Below, in pieces: positions 39,493-47,443 of a stretch of DNA of 52,112 nt. The stretch covers positions 1 to 52,112 of the forward strand of contig CACJYD010000011.1 in NCBI GenBank assembly GCA_902597545.1, read 5' to 3'. Numbering within the stretch: the stretch's first letter is position 1; each line of letters opens with the position of its first letter. Both the position numbers and the translations under genes were made by a program. This DNA is from an uncultured Bacteroidota bacterium (GTDB taxonomy: Bacteria; Bacteroidota; Bacteroidia; Flavobacteriales; Flavobacteriaceae). The notes beneath the pieces are model-generated. The model ran no database searches, had not been told where the DNA came from, and saw only the letters and a list, made by a program, of their open reading frames with translations.

Positions 39493-40257
39493 CTAATCTT
39501 TAATTAGCTTAATAAAATCTTGCGTTTTAGATACACCATGATTTTCAATATATTTTATATATGCTGAACCAATAATAGCTCCATTACTGTTTTGACATGC
39601 AGCTTGAAATGTTTTTTTATTACTAATGCCAAATCCAATTAATAATGGATTTGAAAGATTCAATTTTTTTATTCTTTTAAAATATTCAATTTGATATTTA
39701 TCAAAACTATCTTTAGCTCCAGTCACACTGTAGCTACTGACCATGTATATAAAACCTTTAGAGAGATCATCAATCAGGTTAATTCTTTCATTTGAGGTTT
39801 GTGGAGTGATTAAAAACATCATGTTCAATTTATATTTTTCAAAAATAATTTTATAATTTTTTTTAAAAATATCAGCTGGTAAATCAGGTATTATTAAACC
39901 ATCAATTCCTACATCCTTACAATTTGAACAAAACTTTTCAATTCCATATTGTAAAATAGGATTGAAATAACCCATTATAACAACCGGGATATCTGATATT
40001 TTTCTTAAATCCTTCAGCTGATCAAATAATAAATTAGTTGTCATTCCATTACTAAGCGCTTTTTCAGAACTTTTTTGAATAGTAGGTCCATCAGCTAAAG
40101 GATCACTAAATGGTAATCCGATTTCGATCATATCAACTTGTGATTTATCTAGCTCTTTAATGATTTTTAATGTATCATTAATACCTGGAAAGCCAGCTGT
40201 AAAATAAATCGATAAAAGATTTTTTTTCTTATTAAAAACTTTGTTTATTCTATTCAT
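39493..40257 (-). CDS. trpA: Tryptophan synthase alpha subunit
   Basis: Cleaves indole-3-glycerol phosphate to indole and glyceraldehyde 3-phosphate; forms a complex with TrpB. It has 254 residues. The catalytic E45 and D56 lie in MIEIGLPFSDPLADGPTIQ. Other conserved parts are GYFNPILQYG, IPDLPADIF and GFGISNKKTF. It is the last gene of the trp operon, but the sulfatase gene stands between it and trpB. Its ATG overlaps the sulfatase stop by 8 nt, so it is still translationally linked. Its stop meets the yaaA stop head-on with no space between. Confidence 0.97.
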   Translation of the reverse strand: MNRINKVFNKKKNLLSIYFTAGFPGINDTLKIIKELDKSQVDMIEIGLPFSDPLADGPTIQKSSEKALSNGMTTNLLFDQLKDLRKISDIPVVIMGYFNPILQYGIEKFCSNCKDVGIDGLIIPDLPADIFKKNYKIIFEKYKLNMMFLITPQTSNERINLIDDLSKGFIYMVSSYSVTGAKDSFDKYQIEYFKRIKKLNLSNPLLIGFGISNKKTFQAACQNSNGAIIGSAYIKYIENHGVSKTQDFIKLIKD

Positions 40258-41812
40258 TTGCAGGCTTTAAATAAACTCTTTTCCCTGTCTCATCATATAA
40301 ATCTCCAGGTGTGTAAGTATAACGTTTATATGGCACTTCCTTTAGCTGTCTACCCAAACCTTCTGGTTTTTTTCTGGCATCTTTAATTCTAAGATTAATC
40401 TCAATTTTTAATGAGTCAACAGTTTTTATGTAGTTAGGATCATTTGCCAAGTTGTTCATCTCATCACTATCAAACTCGTGGTCGTATAATTCATATCCGT
40501 ATTCTCCATTTTCACCCCATTTAACAAATCTGTAATTTTCTGTTTTTATTGAATATCCTTCAACATTATTGAATCTTGTAGCTATCCATCTAGTTAGGGC
40601 ACTGTTTCTTATTTTGTGATTTACGTTATTAAATATTGGCACAAGACTTTTCCCAACAACATGCTTAGGACTTTTAATTTTTGTTAAATCCATTAAAGTT
40701 GGATAAATATCTATTAGCTCTACGGGTGAGTTAGATTTCTTTCCACTTACAATTCCAGGCCCTGAAAAAATTAAAGGAACCCTTGTTGTTTTTTCATATA
40801 AAGTTTGCTTTTGCCAGTGACCCTTTTCACCAAGATGGTATCCATGATCACTAGAAAAAACTACAACAGTGTTTTTATCAAGGCCAGTATCTTTCAATTT
40901 TTTTATAATCCTTCCAACCTGAGCATCAAGAAAACTTACAGTTGCGTAATATGCTCTCTTTATTTCTTGTGCTTCAGATTTACTTAAATCATATTGATTC
41001 CCTTTTCCATCTCCTCTATGTCTTAAGGAAATAGCAGCTGGTTCTGGAATTGTCTTTAAAAAGTCCTCACTCATTTCAGGAATATTGATATTATTTATAT
41101 CATACATTTCAAAGTATTTTTTTGGAGCAACATATGGTGTGTGTGGTTTAAAAAAGCCTACCCCTAAGAAAAAATTTTCCCCTGATTTAGCAAATTTTTC
41201 AAGTTGTTCTATTGCTTCCGTTGCAATAATACCATCTGTTTGCTCCTCATCACTTCCTTCTGCTTCTAGCCAACTCAATGTCCCACCGTACTGTCTTGTT
41301 TTAAGAGTTTTAATTTTATATTCTTCTTCCTTGTCACGGCCGTAAGGATTAATTGTATAATCCCATGTGTAAATATCGTCAGCACTTGATGTTCCAATTG
41401 AACCTGGATTATCATAATGATATATTTTACCAATTCTAACTGATTTATAACCTCTTTGTCTAAATCTTTGACCTAAAGTAATGACATCAGGAATAGTTGT
41501 TCTTATATCAACATTTAATTTTGTGTGTTTCGTCTGATCTGAGTAAAGTCCTGTCATAAAGGAAGCTCTTGATTGACCACATTGAGGCCATTGAATGTGA
41601 GCATTCTCAAAAAGAAATCCATTTTCGGCAAGTTTGTCAATGTTAGGACTAATTACTTGGTCATGATTGTAAGAACCTAAATCACAATTTAAATCATCTG
41701 TCATAATGAATAAAACATTTGTTTTTTCATTTAAATCAGAATAACTGTTACTTGAATTACATGAGCAAAGAATTAAAAACACAATTGAAATGAAAAAATA
41801 AATCTGTTTCAT
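40250..41812 (-). CDS. Lipoprotein sulfatase (iduronate-2-sulfatase-like) within the trp operon
   Basis: A predicted periplasmic or surface lipoprotein sulfatase of the type I sulfatase fold. Signal sequence 1-17 ends in lipobox L-C-S-C18. D39 and D40 (IMTDDLN) bind Ca. The modifiable cysteine is C78 in C-G-Q-S-R-A-S; the consensus is C-x-P-S-R, so Gln replaces Pro. Also seen are GFFKPHTPYVAPKKY (Lys and His ligands), SSDHGYHLGEKGHWQK and RVPLIFSGPG, as in iduronate-2-sulfatase-like members. Full length is 520 residues. It overlaps the trpB stop by 4 nt and trpA by 8 nt. The substrate is unknown; marine flavobacteria use sulfatases on algal polysaccharides. Confidence 0.9.
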   Translation of the reverse strand: MKQIYFFISIVFLILCSCNSSNSYSDLNEKTNVLFIMTDDLNCDLGSYNHDQVISPNIDKLAENGFLFENAHIQWPQCGQSRASFMTGLYSDQTKHTKLNVDIRTTIPDVITLGQRFRQRGYKSVRIGKIYHYDNPGSIGTSSADDIYTWDYTINPYGRDKEEEYKIKTLKTRQYGGTLSWLEAEGSDEEQTDGIIATEAIEQLEKFAKSGENFFLGVGFFKPHTPYVAPKKYFEMYDINNINIPEMSEDFLKTIPEPAAISLRHRGDGKGNQYDLSKSEAQEIKRAYYATVSFLDAQVGRIIKKLKDTGLDKNTVVVFSSDHGYHLGEKGHWQKQTLYEKTTRVPLIFSGPGIVSGKKSNSPVELIDIYPTLMDLTKIKSPKHVVGKSLVPIFNNVNHKIRNSALTRWIATRFNNVEGYSIKTENYRFVKWGENGEYGYELYDHEFDSDEMNNLANDPNYIKTVDSLKIEINLRIKDARKKPEGLGRQLKEVPYKRYTYTPGDLYDETGKRVYLKPANE

Positions 41813-42993
41813 AATTTAAAGTAATTAATATAAGTATCTAAATCTTTGTCTCCTCTACCTGAACAATTAAATATAATAATATCATTTTTACCAAATTTCA
41901 TTTTATCTAGAACTGCAAAAGCATGAGATGTCTCTATGGCGGGAATAATTCCTTCCATTTGAGATAAAATTAATCCCCATTTCATAGCATCACTATCATC
42001 AATTGATATAAATTCACCTCTTTTAGATCTGAAAAGATTTGCATGCATAGGACCAATTCCTGGGTAATCAAGCCCTGCCGATATTGAATATGGCTCAGTG
42101 ATTTGCCCATCTTTTGTTTGCATTAATAAAGTTTTTGATCCATGTATAATCCCCTCAGTCCCAAGAATTGATGTTGCAGCACTTTCACCACTATGAACAC
42201 CCTTTCCTGCAGCTTCTACACATACTATGTTTACATTTTTATTATTTAAAAATGGATAAAAAAGTCCTGCAGCATTACTACCACCACCAACGCATGCAAT
42301 AACATGGGTTGGATTTTCAGTGTTTTCAAATTTTAATAATTGTTTTTTAGTTTCATAGCCAATAACTGATTGAAATCTGGCAACCATATCGGGATATGGA
42401 TGAGGACCCACAACTGACCCTATTATGTAGTGTGTGTCAACAGGATTTGAAATCCAATCTCTTATTGCTTCATTTGTAGCATCTTTTAGTGTTTTACTTC
42501 CTGATGTTGCTGGTCTAACTTTTGCACCTAACATTTTCATCCTAGCAACATTTGGGGCTTGACGTGAGATATCAACTTCTCCCATGTAAATAACACATTC
42601 AACACCCATTAATGCACATACAGTAGCAGTTGCAACACCATGTTGTCCAGCACCTGTTTCAGCAATTATTCTTTTTTTACCAAGTTTTTTTGCTAAAAGT
42701 ATTTGACCAATTGTGTTGTTGATTTTATGTGCTCCCGTGTGGCAAAGATCTTCTCTTTTTAAATAAATTTTCGTTTTAAATTTTTCTGAGAGTCTCTTTG
42801 CATAATATAGTGGAGTTGGCCTTCCAACATAATCATGCAAAAGTTGATTAAACTCCTTTTTAAATTCTTTTGATTCCGATATTTTAATATAGTTTTTTTG
42901 AAGTTCATCTATATTTGGAAATAACATTTCAGGTATAAATGCTCCTCCAAAATCACCGTAGAAACCATCTTTATTTACATTGAAATTTTTCAT
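41809..42993 (-). CDS. trpB: Tryptophan synthase beta subunit
   Basis: PLP enzyme that joins indole and serine into tryptophan. It has 394 residues. The PLP lysine is K90 in HTGAHKINN, and the phosphate-binding loop is GGGSNAAGLF. The EDLCHTGAHK start and AETGAGQHGVATATV are also conserved. It begins immediately after trpF (gap 0) and its stop overlaps the sulfatase ATG (ATGA). Confidence 0.98.
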   Translation of the reverse strand: MKNFNVNKDGFYGDFGGAFIPEMLFPNIDELQKNYIKISESKEFKKEFNQLLHDYVGRPTPLYYAKRLSEKFKTKIYLKREDLCHTGAHKINNTIGQILLAKKLGKKRIIAETGAGQHGVATATVCALMGVECVIYMGEVDISRQAPNVARMKMLGAKVRPATSGSKTLKDATNEAIRDWISNPVDTHYIIGSVVGPHPYPDMVARFQSVIGYETKKQLLKFENTENPTHVIACVGGGSNAAGLFYPFLNNKNVNIVCVEAAGKGVHSGESAATSILGTEGIIHGSKTLLMQTKDGQITEPYSISAGLDYPGIGPMHANLFRSKRGEFISIDDSDAMKWGLILSQMEGIIPAIETSHAFAVLDKMKFGKNDIIIFNCSGRGDKDLDTYINYFKL

Positions 42994-43599
42994 TTATTTA
43001 ATTTTTTTTAAAAACATATTTACTTTTTTAACATCCTTTATGCCAGGTGAGATCTCAAATTTGCTATTAATGTCTATACCAAGCAAAAAATCATTTTCAT
43101 TTTTTATATTATTGATTTCATCTACACTGTTGATGTCTATACCACCACTTAAAAGAAACTTTTTTTTGTTGAAGCCCTTAAGTCTTTTCCAATCAAATTT
43201 TTTACCAGAACCACCAAAATTTTTTGAAAAAGTATCAAAAAGAAATAGATCACAACAATCAGTATATTGATTTGTAATATCAAAATCAAAATTTTCAGAA
43301 ATTCTAAAGGCTTTAATTACTTTGCAATAATTCATCAATTTTTCACTGAATTTTGGTGTTTCGTCCCCGTGAAGTTGAACATAATTTAAATTATAATTTT
43401 TAATTTTTTTCTTAATGTTTTCTAGACTTTCATTGACAAAAACCCCAACCTTCTTTTTTTTAATATGAGAGGTATTTATCTCCAGATCAATGAATCTTGA
43501 TGACTTATTATAGAAAATAAATCCCATTAAATCTATATCAATTTTATTTAATTGATTTATGTTATTCATCTCTTTTAAACCACAAACTTTAACAATCAT
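42994..43599 (-). CDS. trpF: Phosphoribosylanthranilate isomerase
   Basis: Third step of the trp pathway: converts phosphoribosylanthranilate to the enol carboxyphenylamino form. It has 201 residues. VKVCGL (active-site Cys7 region), VGVFVNE, VQLHGDE, FLFDTFSKNFGGSGKKFDW and LSGGIDINSV fit the family TIM barrel; the catalytic Asp lies in the FDT motif. It overlaps the trpC stop by 11 nt and abuts trpB. Confidence 0.94.
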   Translation of the reverse strand: MIVKVCGLKEMNNINQLNKIDIDLMGFIFYNKSSRFIDLEINTSHIKKKKVGVFVNESLENIKKKIKNYNLNYVQLHGDETPKFSEKLMNYCKVIKAFRISENFDFDITNQYTDCCDLFLFDTFSKNFGGSGKKFDWKRLKGFNKKKFLLSGGIDINSVDEINNIKNENDFLLGIDINSKFEISPGIKDVKKVNMFLKKIK

Positions 43600-44380
43600 T
43601 TTTTATTTCATTTAAAAAGTTTGCGAGAGCTCTGCCAGGATCTACACTTTTCATAAAATTTTCACCAATTAAAAAACCATCATATCCAAAATTCTTAAGA
43701 GTTACAATGTCATTAGAATTACTTATTCCACTTTCTGAAATCTTAGCATAATTGCTTGGTATCTTACTACTCAAGCTAACACTAGTTTCAATATCTACAT
43801 TGAATGTCTTCAAATTTCTATTATTTACTCCAATTATATCTACACTTTCTATACAGCAATCATCAAGTTCAGATAAATCATGTATTTCAATTAAAACTTC
43901 TAAACCCAAACTTTTCGCAAGCTCAGATAGCTTAATTATTTGCTTTTTGTCTAAGCATGCAGCAATTAATAAAATACCATCAGCACCAATTGATTTAGAC
44001 TCAATAACTTGAAATTCATCAATTATAAAGTCTTTTCTTAGAATTGGCAATTCTGTAATTTTTCTAGCATTAAGTATATCATTATTAGATCCATTAAAAA
44101 AATTTTTTTCTGTCAAAATTGAAAGTGCAGCTGCTCCTGCCTCTTGATAACCATTTATAATTTTTTCAGTTGGTGTTTGAGAATTGATTTCAGATTTAGA
44201 TGGAGATTTTCTTTTATGCTCAGCAATAATACTTATTTCATTTTCTATCAAACCATTTACGATAGATTTGTTATTTCTTTCAAAAAATTCACTGTTTTCT
44301 AAGTCAGAAATAGAAATACTTCTTTTGAGTTGATTTAATTCGTCTATTTTTTTTGAAATTATTTTTGAAAGGATATCCAT
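43589..44380 (-). CDS. trpC: Indole-3-glycerol phosphate synthase
   Basis: Ring-closing decarboxylase that makes indole-3-glycerol phosphate. I start at ATG 44380 (263 residues), 1 nt after the trpD stop; a TTG at 44392 would add four residues. IAEHKRKSPSKSEI holds the catalytic lysine, LRKDFIIDEFQ, GADGILLIAA, LGVEVLIEIHD-like and GVNNRNLKTF are typical. ESGISNSNDI and DGFLIGENFM lie near the end. It is separate from trpF, not fused as in enterobacteria. Confidence 0.96.
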   Translation of the reverse strand: MDILSKIISKKIDELNQLKRSISISDLENSEFFERNNKSIVNGLIENEISIIAEHKRKSPSKSEINSQTPTEKIINGYQEAGAAALSILTEKNFFNGSNNDILNARKITELPILRKDFIIDEFQVIESKSIGADGILLIAACLDKKQIIKLSELAKSLGLEVLIEIHDLSELDDCCIESVDIIGVNNRNLKTFNVDIETSVSLSSKIPSNYAKISESGISNSNDIVTLKNFGYDGFLIGENFMKSVDPGRALANFLNEIKNDC

Positions 44381-44381
44381 A

Positions 44382-45368
44382 TTAAATTTCAATCAATTTT
44401 TTTAAACAGTTATAAGCTTTACCACTTTCCAAAGATTCCTTTGCAATTGAGTAGCATTCTTCAATATCTTTCCCAGTTAATGTTCGAATTGCTAAAGATG
44501 AGTTAGCCAAAACTACGTTTACCTGACTTTCAGATCCTTTTCCAACTAGAATTTTAACAAAAATATCTGCAGATTCCTTAATTGATTTACCTCCTAAAAT
44601 TTTTTTAGGATCAACTTTATTCAATTTAAAATATGATGCATCAGAGATAATTTCCTCTTTATTTGTAATTAATTTAAATTCATTAGTTAACGAAATTTCA
44701 TCATATCCATCTAATGAATAAATTATTGAAAAATTTTTATCTGTATTTTTAAATATATAACCATATAGTCTAGCGATTTCTAAATTGTATACACCAGTTA
44801 TTTGATTTTGTGGTTTTGAAGGATTTACAAGTGGCCCTAACAAATTAAAAAAAGTTTTGAAACCTAAATCTTTTCTAACTGGGGCGACGTTTTTCATTGA
44901 TGGATGGAAAAGAGGTGCATGTAAATAACAAATATTAGAACCTTCTAAACATTTTTTTAAATGTGATTCATCATTTGAAAATTTAACACCTAAAGACTCC
45001 AAAACATTGCTTGATCCGCAATTTGAGGATACTCCATAGTTGCCATGTTTAGTTACTTTAAAACCTGATCCTGCAACAACAAATGAAGAAATAGTTGATA
45101 TATTAAACGTATCTTTTCCATCTCCCCCTGTGCCACACAAATCAATAGTATTAAAGTCATTAAAATCAATTCCAACACAAAGCTCTAGTAATGCATCTCT
45201 AAAGCCTTCCATTTCTTCAATAGATGGATTCCTCATTTTAAAGGCAGTTATAAAAGATGCAATTTCAGAGTTTGAATACTTATTACTGGTTATATCTATC
45301 AGTACTCTTTTAGCTTGATTGTAATCAAGTTTATTGTATTCGAATAAATATTCAAGAATTTCTTTCAT
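44382..45368 (-). CDS. trpD: Anthranilate phosphoribosyltransferase
   Basis: Adds phosphoribosyl from PRPP to anthranilate. I chose ATG 45368 (328 residues), whose bases overlap the trpG stop as ATGA; a TTG at 45383 would add five. CGTGGDGKDTFNIST is the PRPP-binding loop; KHGNYGVSSNCGSSNVLESLGV and FLFHPSMKNVAPVRKDLG-like segments follow. It precedes trpC by 1 nt. Confidence 0.96.
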   Translation of the reverse strand: MKEILEYLFEYNKLDYNQAKRVLIDITSNKYSNSEIASFITAFKMRNPSIEEMEGFRDALLELCVGIDFNDFNTIDLCGTGGDGKDTFNISTISSFVVAGSGFKVTKHGNYGVSSNCGSSNVLESLGVKFSNDESHLKKCLEGSNICYLHAPLFHPSMKNVAPVRKDLGFKTFFNLLGPLVNPSKPQNQITGVYNLEIARLYGYIFKNTDKNFSIIYSLDGYDEISLTNEFKLITNKEEIISDASYFKLNKVDPKKILGGKSIKESADIFVKILVGKGSESQVNVVLANSSLAIRTLTGKDIEECYSIAKESLESGKAYNCLKKLIEI

Positions 45369-45925
45369 TTTGCTTCTATCCAATTTTTTAAAATTTCTTT
45401 ACCCATCTCAGTTAGAATGGACTCTGGGTGAAATTGAACTCCCCAAACATTGTAGTTTTTTAGTTTAAGAGCCATAACGTTTTTATCTCTGTCAAAAGCC
45501 AATGGTATTAAATCCTTTGAAAGTTCTTTTACTATCCATGAATGGTATCTACCAACTTTAAGTTTCCTTGGGATATTAATAAATAACTGGTCATCTGATG
45601 TAATTTCTATATCAGTTGAAACACCATGAAAAACATCTTTTAAATTATGTAGTTTTCCTCCAAAAACTTCACCTATGGCTTGATGTCCTAAACAAACACC
45701 CAAAATACTTTTTTTATCAAAAAATTCCTTAATTATTTTTTTAGTTAGTCCTGCTTCATCTGGTATTCCTGGGCCTGGAGAAATAAGAATTTTATCAAAA
45801 TCATTGATAAAATCAAGTGTTAAATCATCATTCCTTTTTACTGTAACATCACAATCTAAATCCTCTAAATAATGGACAAGATTGTATGTAAAAGAATCAT
45901 AATTGTCTATAACTATAATTTTCAT
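45365..45925 (-). CDS. trpG: Anthranilate synthase component II (glutamine amidotransferase)
   Basis: Supplies ammonia from glutamine to TrpE. It has 186 residues of the class I amidotransferase type, with the catalytic triad C78 (GVCLGHQAIGE), H166 and E168 (QFHPESIL). The oxyanion segment SPGPGIPDEAG is present. It is not fused to trpD. The ATG overlaps the trpE stop by 4 nt. A shared role with folate (PabA) is possible, but no pabB is in the window. Confidence 0.96.
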   Translation of the reverse strand: MKIIVIDNYDSFTYNLVHYLEDLDCDVTVKRNDDLTLDFINDFDKILISPGPGIPDEAGLTKKIIKEFFDKKSILGVCLGHQAIGEVFGGKLHNLKDVFHGVSTDIEITSDDQLFINIPRKLKVGRYHSWIVKELSKDLIPLAFDRDKNVMALKLKNYNVWGVQFHPESILTEMGKEILKNWIEAK

Positions 45926-47316
45926 AATTCTTCTGCTTTTTCAAGTGCTTTTAGTAAAGCACCAATTTTATTGTAAACTTCATTCAGCTCATTATGTCTA
46001 TTTGACTTTGAAACAATCCCGGCACCTGCTTGAAATAATAAATTTTGATTTTTGCTCAAGAAGGATCTGATCATAATAGCATGATTAAAATTATTATCAA
46101 AATCGATAAAGCCAATTGCTCCACCATAAAATGATCTAGTATGATTTTCATATTCTTCAATCAACTCCATTGCTCTAAACTTAGGTGCTCCTGTGAGCGT
46201 TCCAGCTGGAAAAGTGTTCCCAATTATATCATTTGATGGTGATTTCAACTCACCGGTTACTTTTGATACTAAATGAATAACATGAGAATAAAATTGAATT
46301 TCACGATCTTTTTCAACTTTTACATTTGAACATGACCTGCTCAAATCATTTCTTGCTAAATCGACCAACATCATATGTTCACTATTTTCTTTATCATCCT
46401 CAAATAATTTTATTGCTTTCTCTTTATCCACTGCATCATCACCACTTCTTTTAAATGTTCCTGCGATAGGATGTATTTCAGCTTTTTTATCCTTTATTAC
46501 AAGCTGAGCTTCAGGTGAACTACCAAAAATCTTAAAACTTCCATAATCAAAATAAAATAAATATGGCGAAGGATTAATTGATCGTAATTGCCTGTATACA
46601 CAAAATTCATCTCCAGAAAATTTTTGAGAAAATTTTCTTGACAAGACTATTTGAAATACATCCCCTCGATAACAATGTTTTATTCCATTATCAACCATTT
46701 TTAAAAACTCATCATCTGTTAAATTAGATTCTAATTTTCCATTTAACTTGAAACTAAATTCATTGGTTTTTTTTCCTTTAATTAATTTTTCAATCTCATC
46801 AATTTTATTTTTGTTGCCTGAGTGGCTAATTAAGTTAGCCTCATTATTAAATGTATTTACGACTATTATTTCACTGTATAAACTGTAATAGATATCCGGA
46901 ACATCATCACCGAAAGACTCATTATTAATATTAATTTTTTCAAAAAATCTTACTGAATCATAAGTCATGTAGCCAAACAAACCTTTGCTTATATATTTTT
47001 TGCTTTGATTTGAATCATCTTGAATATTGAACTTATTCATAAACTTTTCAAGCTCTGAAAAAATACGAATGTCTTTTGCTACTTCTTTTTGGAACTTAGA
47101 TCCATCAGGATATTCTGTAAACAAAGTATTTTTTTTGACATAAAACTTTGCTATCGGATTGCAGCATATATATGCATAGCTATTATCCTTTGCACTGTAA
47201 TCACTACTTTCAAGCAATATTGTATTAGAATAGTTATCCCTAAGTTTTAAATATATACTTACAGGTGTAATAGTATCAACAATAATATTCTTTTTTACAG
47301 AATTTAATTTATACAT
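45922..47316 (-). CDS. trpE: Anthranilate synthase component I
   Basis: Makes anthranilate from chorismate with ammonia from TrpG, the first committed step. It has 464 residues. The N-terminal Trp-feedback motif LLESSDYS is near residue 34. The chorismate-binding domain has IAGTFKRSGD, ENSEHMMLVDLARNDL and GTLTGAPKFRAMELI. It is the first structural gene of the trp operon; the start ATG 47316 lies 4 nt after the T-run of the leader terminator. Feedback inhibition by Trp is expected from the motif, in addition to the leader control. Confidence 0.97.
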   Translation of the reverse strand: MYKLNSVKKNIIVDTITPVSIYLKLRDNYSNTILLESSDYSAKDNSYAYICCNPIAKFYVKKNTLFTEYPDGSKFQKEVAKDIRIFSELEKFMNKFNIQDDSNQSKKYISKGLFGYMTYDSVRFFEKININNESFGDDVPDIYYSLYSEIIVVNTFNNEANLISHSGNKNKIDEIEKLIKGKKTNEFSFKLNGKLESNLTDDEFLKMVDNGIKHCYRGDVFQIVLSRKFSQKFSGDEFCVYRQLRSINPSPYLFYFDYGSFKIFGSSPEAQLVIKDKKAEIHPIAGTFKRSGDDAVDKEKAIKLFEDDKENSEHMMLVDLARNDLSRSCSNVKVEKDREIQFYSHVIHLVSKVTGELKSPSNDIIGNTFPAGTLTGAPKFRAMELIEEYENHTRSFYGGAIGFIDFDNNFNHAIMIRSFLSKNQNLLFQAGAGIVSKSNRHNELNEVYNKIGALLKALEKAEEL

Positions 47317-47319
47317 AAC

Positions 47320-47349
47320 AAAAAAAGGCTCGTCACATTGACAAGCCTT
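47320..47349 (-). terminator. trp leader intrinsic terminator (attenuator)
   Basis: On the minus strand AAGGCTTGTC (47349-47340), loop AATGT and GACGAGCCTT (47334-47325) form a 10-bp stem with one G-U pair. Seven Ts follow at 47326-47320 (two in the stem). It is GC-richer than its surroundings and lies 4 nt from the trpE start, so it could also hide the initiation region. Confidence 0.85.
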
Positions 47350-47378
47350 ATTAAAATATTTTTAAACAAAATCAATGT
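47335..47378 (-). promoter_or_regulatory. Candidate antiterminator pairing in the trp leader
   Basis: ACATTGA (47378-47372), right at the leader peptide stop, is exactly complementary to TCAATGT (47341-47335), plus one G-U pair. The second strand is the end of the 5' terminator arm and its loop, so this pairing and the terminator exclude each other. A further possible hairpin, CAGTTC(AAAT)GAATTG at 47396-47381, lies within the leader peptide coding region. Confidence 0.6.
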
Positions 47379-47431
47379 TACAATTCATTTGAACTGAACC
47401 ACCACCAAAGATTTATGTTTTTTAATTTCAC
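47378..47431 (-). CDS. trpL: trp operon leader peptide with three tandem Trp codons
   Basis: A 17-residue open frame starting with GTG and reading MKLKNINLWWWFSSNEL, ending TAA. The three consecutive TGG codons (47407-47399) are unlikely by chance directly upstream of the trp operon. The frame is closed by a TGA upstream, so GTG is the only standard start. The stop codon overlaps the candidate antiterminator strand. If the ribosome stalls at Trp codons, the antiterminator is free; if it reaches the stop, that strand is covered and the terminator forms. The promoter box ends only 4 nt before the GTG, so the message may be leaderless. No protein function beyond this regulation is expected. Confidence 0.7.
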   Translation of the reverse strand: MKLKNINLWWWFSSNEL

Positions 47432-47435
47432 GATT

Positions 47436-47443
47436 CAAATATA
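47436..47443 (-). promoter_or_regulatory. Bacteroidota minus-7 box of the trp operon
   Basis: TATATTTG on the minus strand, exact TAnnTTTG match, 4 nt before the leader peptide GTG. The nearest TTG is only 10 nt upstream, too close for a standard minus-33 element, so the promoter call rests on this box and the context. Confidence 0.55.

Follow-up and report, generated by a model that had tools for sequence, protein, structure and literature searches.

How does the uncultured flavobacterium studied here control its trp operon? The stretch of DNA that we analysed, called the window here (52,112 nucleotides), carries a short frame with tryptophan codons and a hairpin directly upstream of trpE, and a reading of the sequence alone had taken this region for a ribosome-mediated trp attenuator. 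The Trp codons, terminators and covarying pairing of its relatives support that reading, and we consider the element very probably a ribosome-mediated transcription attenuator of the trp operon. Two features of this class are present: a short frame in which Trp codons cluster, and an intrinsic terminator opposed by an antiterminator that excludes it and shows covariation. The parts are listed below in window coordinates.

47436..47443, minus strand: -7 promoter element TATATTTG, consensus TAHHTTTG (strict consensus before 126/138 leaders)
47431, minus strand: putative transcription start, the G of the GTG codon, placed by the 4 nt spacing after the -7 element
47378..47431, minus strand: leader frame GTG...TAA, 17 codons, VKLKNINLWWWFSSNEL (start-codon position kept in 14/14 genus loci)
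47431-47429, minus strand: leader start codon GTG, followed by seven more codons and then the Trp codons
47399..47407, minus strand: three consecutive Trp codons (TGG), followed by six further codons and then TAA
47380-47378, minus strand: leader stop codon TAA, read directly
47386..47392, minus strand: segment 1, UCAAAUG, which may pair with segment 2 as its protector, one base being bulged (by eye)
47371..47378, minus strand: segment 2, ACAUUGA(U), ACAUUGAU, sharing one base with the stop codon, the last of TAA (centroid fold, covariation, energies)
47335..47342, minus strand: segment 3, (G)UCAAUGU, GUCAAUGU (centroid fold, covariation, energies, complement count)
47325..47349, minus strand: intrinsic terminator hairpin, 11 pairs including one U-G (terminator scan, folding)
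47320..47326, minus strand: terminator T-run, seven T, ending 3 bases before the trpE ATG at 47316
45922..47316, minus strand: trpE, first operon gene (best NCBIfam match trpE_most, E 3.6e-120)
39493..45925, minus strand: trpG, trpD, trpC, trpF, trpB, a sulfatase-like gene and trpA (NCBIfam matches)

The GTG-started frame of 17 codons with three TGG was located on the minus strand where the sequence-only reading had put it, and the alternative pairing that it had described was borne out base by base, segments 2 and 3 forming seven Watson-Crick pairs and one G-U. The description was correct overall to within one base or pair: the terminator is present with 11 pairs, one of them U-G, instead of a stem of 10, and the T-run is present at a distance of 3 bases from trpE instead of 4. 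Segment 3 is made up of the top of the terminator 5′ arm, the loop and the first base of the 3′ arm. A spacer of 28 A/T-rich bases, with segment 2 at its start, separates the stop codon from the terminator. As all elements can be read from the sequence, the attenuator appears to be complete.

The gene order of the operon is trpE-G-D-C-F-B, a sulfatase-like gene and trpA. The NCBIfam cut-offs were reached by trpG (subfamily trpG_papA), trpD, trpC, trpB and trpA; the match of trpE to trpE_most was under the model cut-off (402.1 of 517.7 bits), as were those of trpF and the sulfatase. The sulfatase-like gene (40250-41812, minus strand), whose best NCBIfam match is an arylsulfatase, lies between trpB and trpA; it reads with the trp operon and may therefore be under Trp control.

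Several features of the leader were compared with chance expectations. The terminator is the sole one in the 801 bases scanned, where shuffles expect 0.1. The leader RNA folds with a z of -3.07 and was equalled in stability by 1/200 shuffles; minus the terminator 3′ arm, the fold of the leader was no better than that of shuffles (z 0.15), so the fold signal is mostly the terminator. The motif TGGTGGTGG was found three times in the window against 0.07 expected; the codons alone are therefore weak proof, and it is their position and conservation that count. Similarly, the -7 8-mer was not above chance in the window (70 found, 74.5 expected), and its weight thus rests on its position and conservation. 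The pairing motif CATTGA...TCAATG was rejected as a marker by itself, since the scan of the window's own genome gave 12 forward sites versus 8 in the backward control.

Loci of relatives were located through TrpE matches, and the regions upstream of TrpE were then read. A TrpE match was found in 16/23 genomes of the genus (one fragment, L017, was left out) and in 109 of the 120 genomes sampled from the family, where 107/109 places were read and G088 and G101 were left out because of incomplete genes. The 121 genus and family loci, window included, are L001, L003-L016, L018-L046 and L079-L155. TGGTGG lay at most 330 bases from the TrpE match in 117 of these. As for the exceptions, the contig of L016 ends 53 bases upstream, with the terminator still present; L021 has kept its leader, displaced so that TGGTGG lies 368 bases upstream; the stretch read for L129 apparently starts within the terminator 3′ arm; and no Trp-codon pair was found upstream of trpE in L155. 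Extra DNA lies between the trp leader and trpE in both L021 and L129. We take that of L129 to resemble a GIY-YIG-type nuclease frame, and that of L021 is possibly a remnant of one.

Further out, TGGTGG was found in 26/39 loci (18/19 and 8/20; pattern alone, frame unchecked), among which nearer kin are over-represented because these new loci come from the best-scoring 19 of 101 and 20 of 35 matching genomes. Those lacking it include loci with split Trp codons, with trpB directly upstream or at contig ends. Another set consisted of 27 new loci, the best-scoring among 71 matching genomes, with the same bias. The structural set comprises 138 of 148 loci (138 rows for 137 places, as L066 = L138). 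Left out were L016 at a contig end, L021 and L129 with their upstream-displaced leaders, L078 and L155, in which we found no Trp pair, and five loci whose terminator the script missed (L069, L077, L092, L142 and L149); the terminators of L092 and L142 were detected by an earlier finder, those of L069 and L149 can be made out as hairpins by eye, and L077 has trpB upstream. The earlier finder had kept 95/121 loci, and 22 of its 26 drops were missed terminators, most of them visible by eye.

Three consecutive Trp codons are present in 114 of the 138 kept loci and two in 24, the corresponding numbers in the 14 genus loci being 3 and 11. The comparison of relatives' leaders that had been proposed as a check thus came out positive, with Trp codons and terminator conserved and the alternative pairing kept through compensatory change. 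The lower stem of the terminator, GGCUUGUC/GACAAGCC, is near-identical across the family (e.g., L035, L091 and L127) and contributes little to the covarying pairing. In L078, a locus from a 600-kb genome of the order, trpE is preceded by a T-run and a hairpin that includes GGCUUGUC, with TGGTGG missing; this hairpin is perhaps an attenuator relic.

Segments 2 and 3 covary in sequence among the relatives. In the majority pair of the family, UCGUGA in the stop-codon region matches UCACGA in the terminator loop and the start of the 3′ arm. Variant pairs are ACAUUGA with UCAAUGU in the window, UGUCGC with GCGACA in L011 and L013-L015, GCGAUGA with UCAUCGC in L145, and GGAUUCAG with CUGAAUCC in L153; the leader of L086 has a 9-base match to AUUGCGACA. 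Beyond their complementarity, the variants share little. Over 44 distinct loops, mean pairing was -10.24 kcal/mol with a leader's own loop versus -7.7 kcal/mol with swapped loops, and the observed own-loop sum was reached in 0/20,000 permutations, a number that is not a probability of independent events since the loop sequences are related by descent. A perfect complement of at least 6 nt to the target (loop plus four bases each side) was found in 119/138 leaders, against 5/138 in a control with the loop stretch read backwards. The complement was only 4-5 nt in 16/138 leaders, and 3/138 had none of at least 4 bases; L073, L102, L114 and L147 are among the leaders whose own loop pairs worse than the average majority loop. 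A ranking of each leader's loop against all others gave no information, the leader's own coming first in only 9/138, because most relatives share one motif; the permutation over distinct loops took its place.

Judged from these sequences, the covarying core is the terminator loop with its adjoining bases. In the close kin of the window it leans to the 5′ arm, in most of the family to the 3′ arm. The antiterminator had been drawn as taking the terminator loop and part of the 5′ arm; its 7-bp core stands, but the whole pairing is longer, interrupted and extends over both flanks of the loop. An antiterminator touching the loop only was dropped once the whole hairpin was offered for pairing: over 132 family rows, the pairs were then divided between 5′ arm, loop and 3′ arm as 42%, 31% and 27%, the arm counts being inflated because the hairpin arms are self-complementary. 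When the RNA was folded below a stalled ribosome, the printed leaders added an inner helix with the 5′ arm and often a spacer hairpin. The fold of the window has ACAUUGAU:GUCAAUGU outside and three weak pairs inside, and that of L005 showed no inner helix. The protector pairing of segments 1 and 2 covaries over the set: across 135/138 rows, own segments paired at -6.54 versus -4.99 kcal/mol when swapped (101 distinct segments, 0/20,000 permutations). The best such duplex found in the window, however, has 5 pairs and only -2.8 kcal/mol.

The energetics of the switch were computed for each leader (n=138) from the difference between its best antiterminator-containing and its best terminator-containing fold. 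Three ribosome states were modelled (A site at the last Trp codon, A site at the stop codon, no ribosome), assuming that the RNA is free from 13 bases past the start of the A-site codon. While the 3′ arm is still incomplete, the antiterminator was favoured in 137/138 leaders with a stalled ribosome and in 12/138 with the ribosome at stop; the corresponding full-length counts were 14/138 and 0/138. For the window, antiterminator minus terminator was -6.6 kcal/mol stalled and +0.8 kcal/mol at stop in the early stage, and +3.8 and +13.9 kcal/mol at full length. The same computation on the E. coli trp leader gave -3.9 kcal/mol at the second Trp codon and +5.4 kcal/mol at stop early, and +4.4 and +13.5 kcal/mol at full length. 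The full-length terminator is thus favoured even with a stalled ribosome, as also in the E. coli control, so the modelled switch must be kinetic. With no ribosome, the early-stage values were -1.6 for the window and +5.0 for E. coli; the window terminator is not favoured in this state, and its protector therefore looks weak, which agrees with the -2.8 kcal/mol of its duplex. Shuffles of the window stretch from the stalled ribosome to the terminator matched the antiterminator advantage in 15/1000 cases early and 3/1000 at full length; for the other 137 rows, the early-stage value was reached by 71/2740 shuffles.

Within about 100 bases before the leader, the -7 element is strict in the 126 leaders listed above, has a weaker form in 5 and is absent in 7. 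Its spacing to the start in F. johnsoniae is given as 4 or 5 nt (PMC6847099). We took as the start the base after four spacer bases and then the first fitting in-frame start codon, ATG preferred. The resulting distance between start and start codon was 0 or 1 nt in 43/131 rows (42/130 places), a count raised by the first-fitting rule, which favours short distances, and a second peak was seen at 12-16. All 14 genus loci whose upstream region is intact have a distance of 0 (GTG in 7, ATG in 7), with the weaker form of the -7 element in four of them (L007-L010). The trp leader of the window would then be leaderless, starting at the first base of GTG. Against this, a leaderless GUG start is usually poor. 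Leaderless mRNAs are reported for F. psychrophilum (5.5% of 890 mRNAs, PMC9723704), about 3.7% of the 5′ UTRs of B. thetaiotaomicron are given as shorter than 10 nt (PMC7366714), and Bacteroidota mRNAs are described as having no Shine-Dalgarno sequences (PMC6847099). The trpL RNA of S. meliloti, which begins at the leader ATG as the window RNA is predicted to begin at its own start codon, is a precedent for a leaderless Trp leader, although it is alphaproteobacterial and starts with ATG whereas the window leader starts with GTG (PMC7298713).

In the mechanism that we infer, RNA polymerase would start at or beside the GTG, and a ribosome would load at the 5′ end and translate the leader peptide. 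When charged tRNA-Trp is plentiful, the ribosome would reach the stop codon and cover segment 2, so that the terminator could form and transcription would stop just before trpE. When Trp is scarce, the ribosome would stall on the Trp codons and leave segment 2 exposed. Ahead of the synthesis of the 3′ arm, segment 2 would then pair with the emerging loop of the terminator and the bases flanking it, a kinetic trap that would let the polymerase continue into trpE.

The leader peptide could instead act on translation, with the hairpin hiding the trpE start, or through Rho on untranslated leader RNA. With 3 bases between the T-run and the trpE ATG, the hairpin of the window species does lie near the start codon, as such a reading would have it. 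However, in some relatives the terminator lies tens of bases before trpE (e.g., L022, L027 and L028), and in L021 about 260 bases before it, with hairpin and T-run kept, and an energy switch in the early stage suits transcription; we regard this alternative as improbable. Less probable still is that the terminator is fixed and the leader decaying, both being relics inherited by a small genome that no longer uses them for regulation. The GTG start, the weak protector, the loss of the Rfam signature in the genus and the limit of two consecutive Trp codons in 11/14 genus loci would fit such decay, but segments 2 and 3 have changed together within the genus with pairing kept (compare the window pair with that of L011 and L013-L015), and all 14 genus loci with an intact upstream region retain a leader frame containing two or more Trp codons. 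Finally, another Trp-sensing leader of the T-box or TRAP type, which would also sit before trpE with a terminator and an alternative pairing, was set aside as barely credible, since the Trp-codon frame is conserved and no T-box match was found at gathering score or with E up to 5 (TRAP sites were sought by eye only).

Trp attenuation of the kind preferred here had been called far better described in Proteobacteria than in Bacteroidota by the sequence-only reading, yet Rfam family RF01692 already describes the same element in relatives. The window leader matched no Rfam family at gathering score; with lax settings, RF01692 (Bacteroid-trp) gave 26.3 bits against a gathering cut-off of 49 (E 0.53, 271-base search) and RF00513 (Trp_leader) 25.5 bits against 41, the E. 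coli control scoring 93.1 bits with RF00513. The RF01692 model matched 0/23 genomes of the window's genus and, with stricter filters, 42/60 sampled family genomes (36 above cut-off). Among 20 chosen relatives, 10 reached the cut-off, 2 scored 44-46 bits and 8 were without match. The descriptive features of RF01692 are found in the window: a Bacteroidota trpE leader, Trp codons and the AAGGCUUGUC end. Both elements lie before trpE with a Trp-codon leader and a terminator that starts with GGCUUGUC; unlike the window element, the RF01692 model stops inside the terminator 5′ arm and lacks the whole terminator and the loop-capturing antiterminator. By place and design the window element is, on this sequence comparison, homologous to RF01692, though below the family score. 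These results suggest that Bacteroid-trp, as now modelled in Rfam, overlooks one entire genus or more.

Weinberg et al. (2010) presented RF01692 as a probable RNA that is cis-regulatory and not a switch (PMC2864571), and Rfam names the element of the relatives a tryptophan peptide leader. Rochat et al. (2019) draw a parallel between it and the E. coli trp leader and report it before the trp operon of F. psychrophilum (PMC6414381), whose transcriptome is described as giving strong clues to leader-peptide attenuation before amino-acid operons (PMC9723704). In a search of the main texts of open-access articles, we found no account of the antiterminator pairing of Bacteroid-trp. The kind of attenuator is therefore already known, and the window element is a member of this functional class with the RF01692 score unreached; what is added here is a covarying antiterminator core predicted to take the terminator loop and adjoining bases, a putative transcription start on the first base of the GTG, and a Phe leader of 5′-arm design in the same genome. 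A computed Bacteroidota RNA motif is turned in this way into an explicit, testable four-segment attenuator.

The window element resembles the E. coli trp leader (RF00513) in its logic, in its Trp codons just before the alternative stems and in its modelled energies. In E. coli, segment 3 is the terminator 5′ arm and the bases before it. The E. coli duplex control, with only the hairpin offered, divided its pairs between 5′ arm, loop and 3′ arm as 5, 2 and 3. The attenuator is ordinary in principle, the pairing geometry and the leaderless start being its parts of interest. The trp attenuator of the Flavobacteriaceae may follow a distinct plan, in which the leader peptide is often leaderless and the covarying antiterminator core captures the emerging top of the terminator (loop and flanks), a proposal that we hold tentatively, just short of calling it probable. 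If true, this plan would allow evolution to change the switch pair again and again without touching the lower stem, and the genus of the window would carry rewritten versions missed by the current RNA model.

The window's own genome also has a leader and terminator upstream of a pheA-like gene, for prephenate dehydratase (L227; G000:C3, upstream of 16238). Its leader frame, read by eye, is Phe/Tyr-rich, and CAGGAUUUUU pairs with the terminator 5′ arm only, a 5′-arm design that differs from the loop and flanks taken by the core of the trp antiterminator. The leaders of pheA and hisG in flavobacteria, organisms similar to that of the window, are described as probable leader-peptide attenuators (PMC9723704). 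We compared 10 his and phe leaders, from 14 hisG and 27 pheA loci. The 5′ arm had the largest pairing share in 9/10, and 4/10 (L198, L204, L214 and L227) had no 3′-arm pairs, whereas the trp leaders of the family spread over arms and loop in the shares given above. At least three consecutive CAY codons precede hisG in 8/14 loci (L196-L209; pattern, not frame-checked), and HisG had no match in the window's own genome, which is 85% complete. These observations suggest that Trp, Phe and His attenuation is common in Bacteroidota.

TGGTGG leaders are also present in five more distant members of the phylum (L170-L174). By eye, CAGUGGG can pair with the terminator 5′ arm CCCACUG in L170, L173 and L174, the classical arrangement, while the possible partners in L171 are CUCAGUG and, in the loop and 3′ arm, CACUGAG, as in the Flavobacteriaceae.
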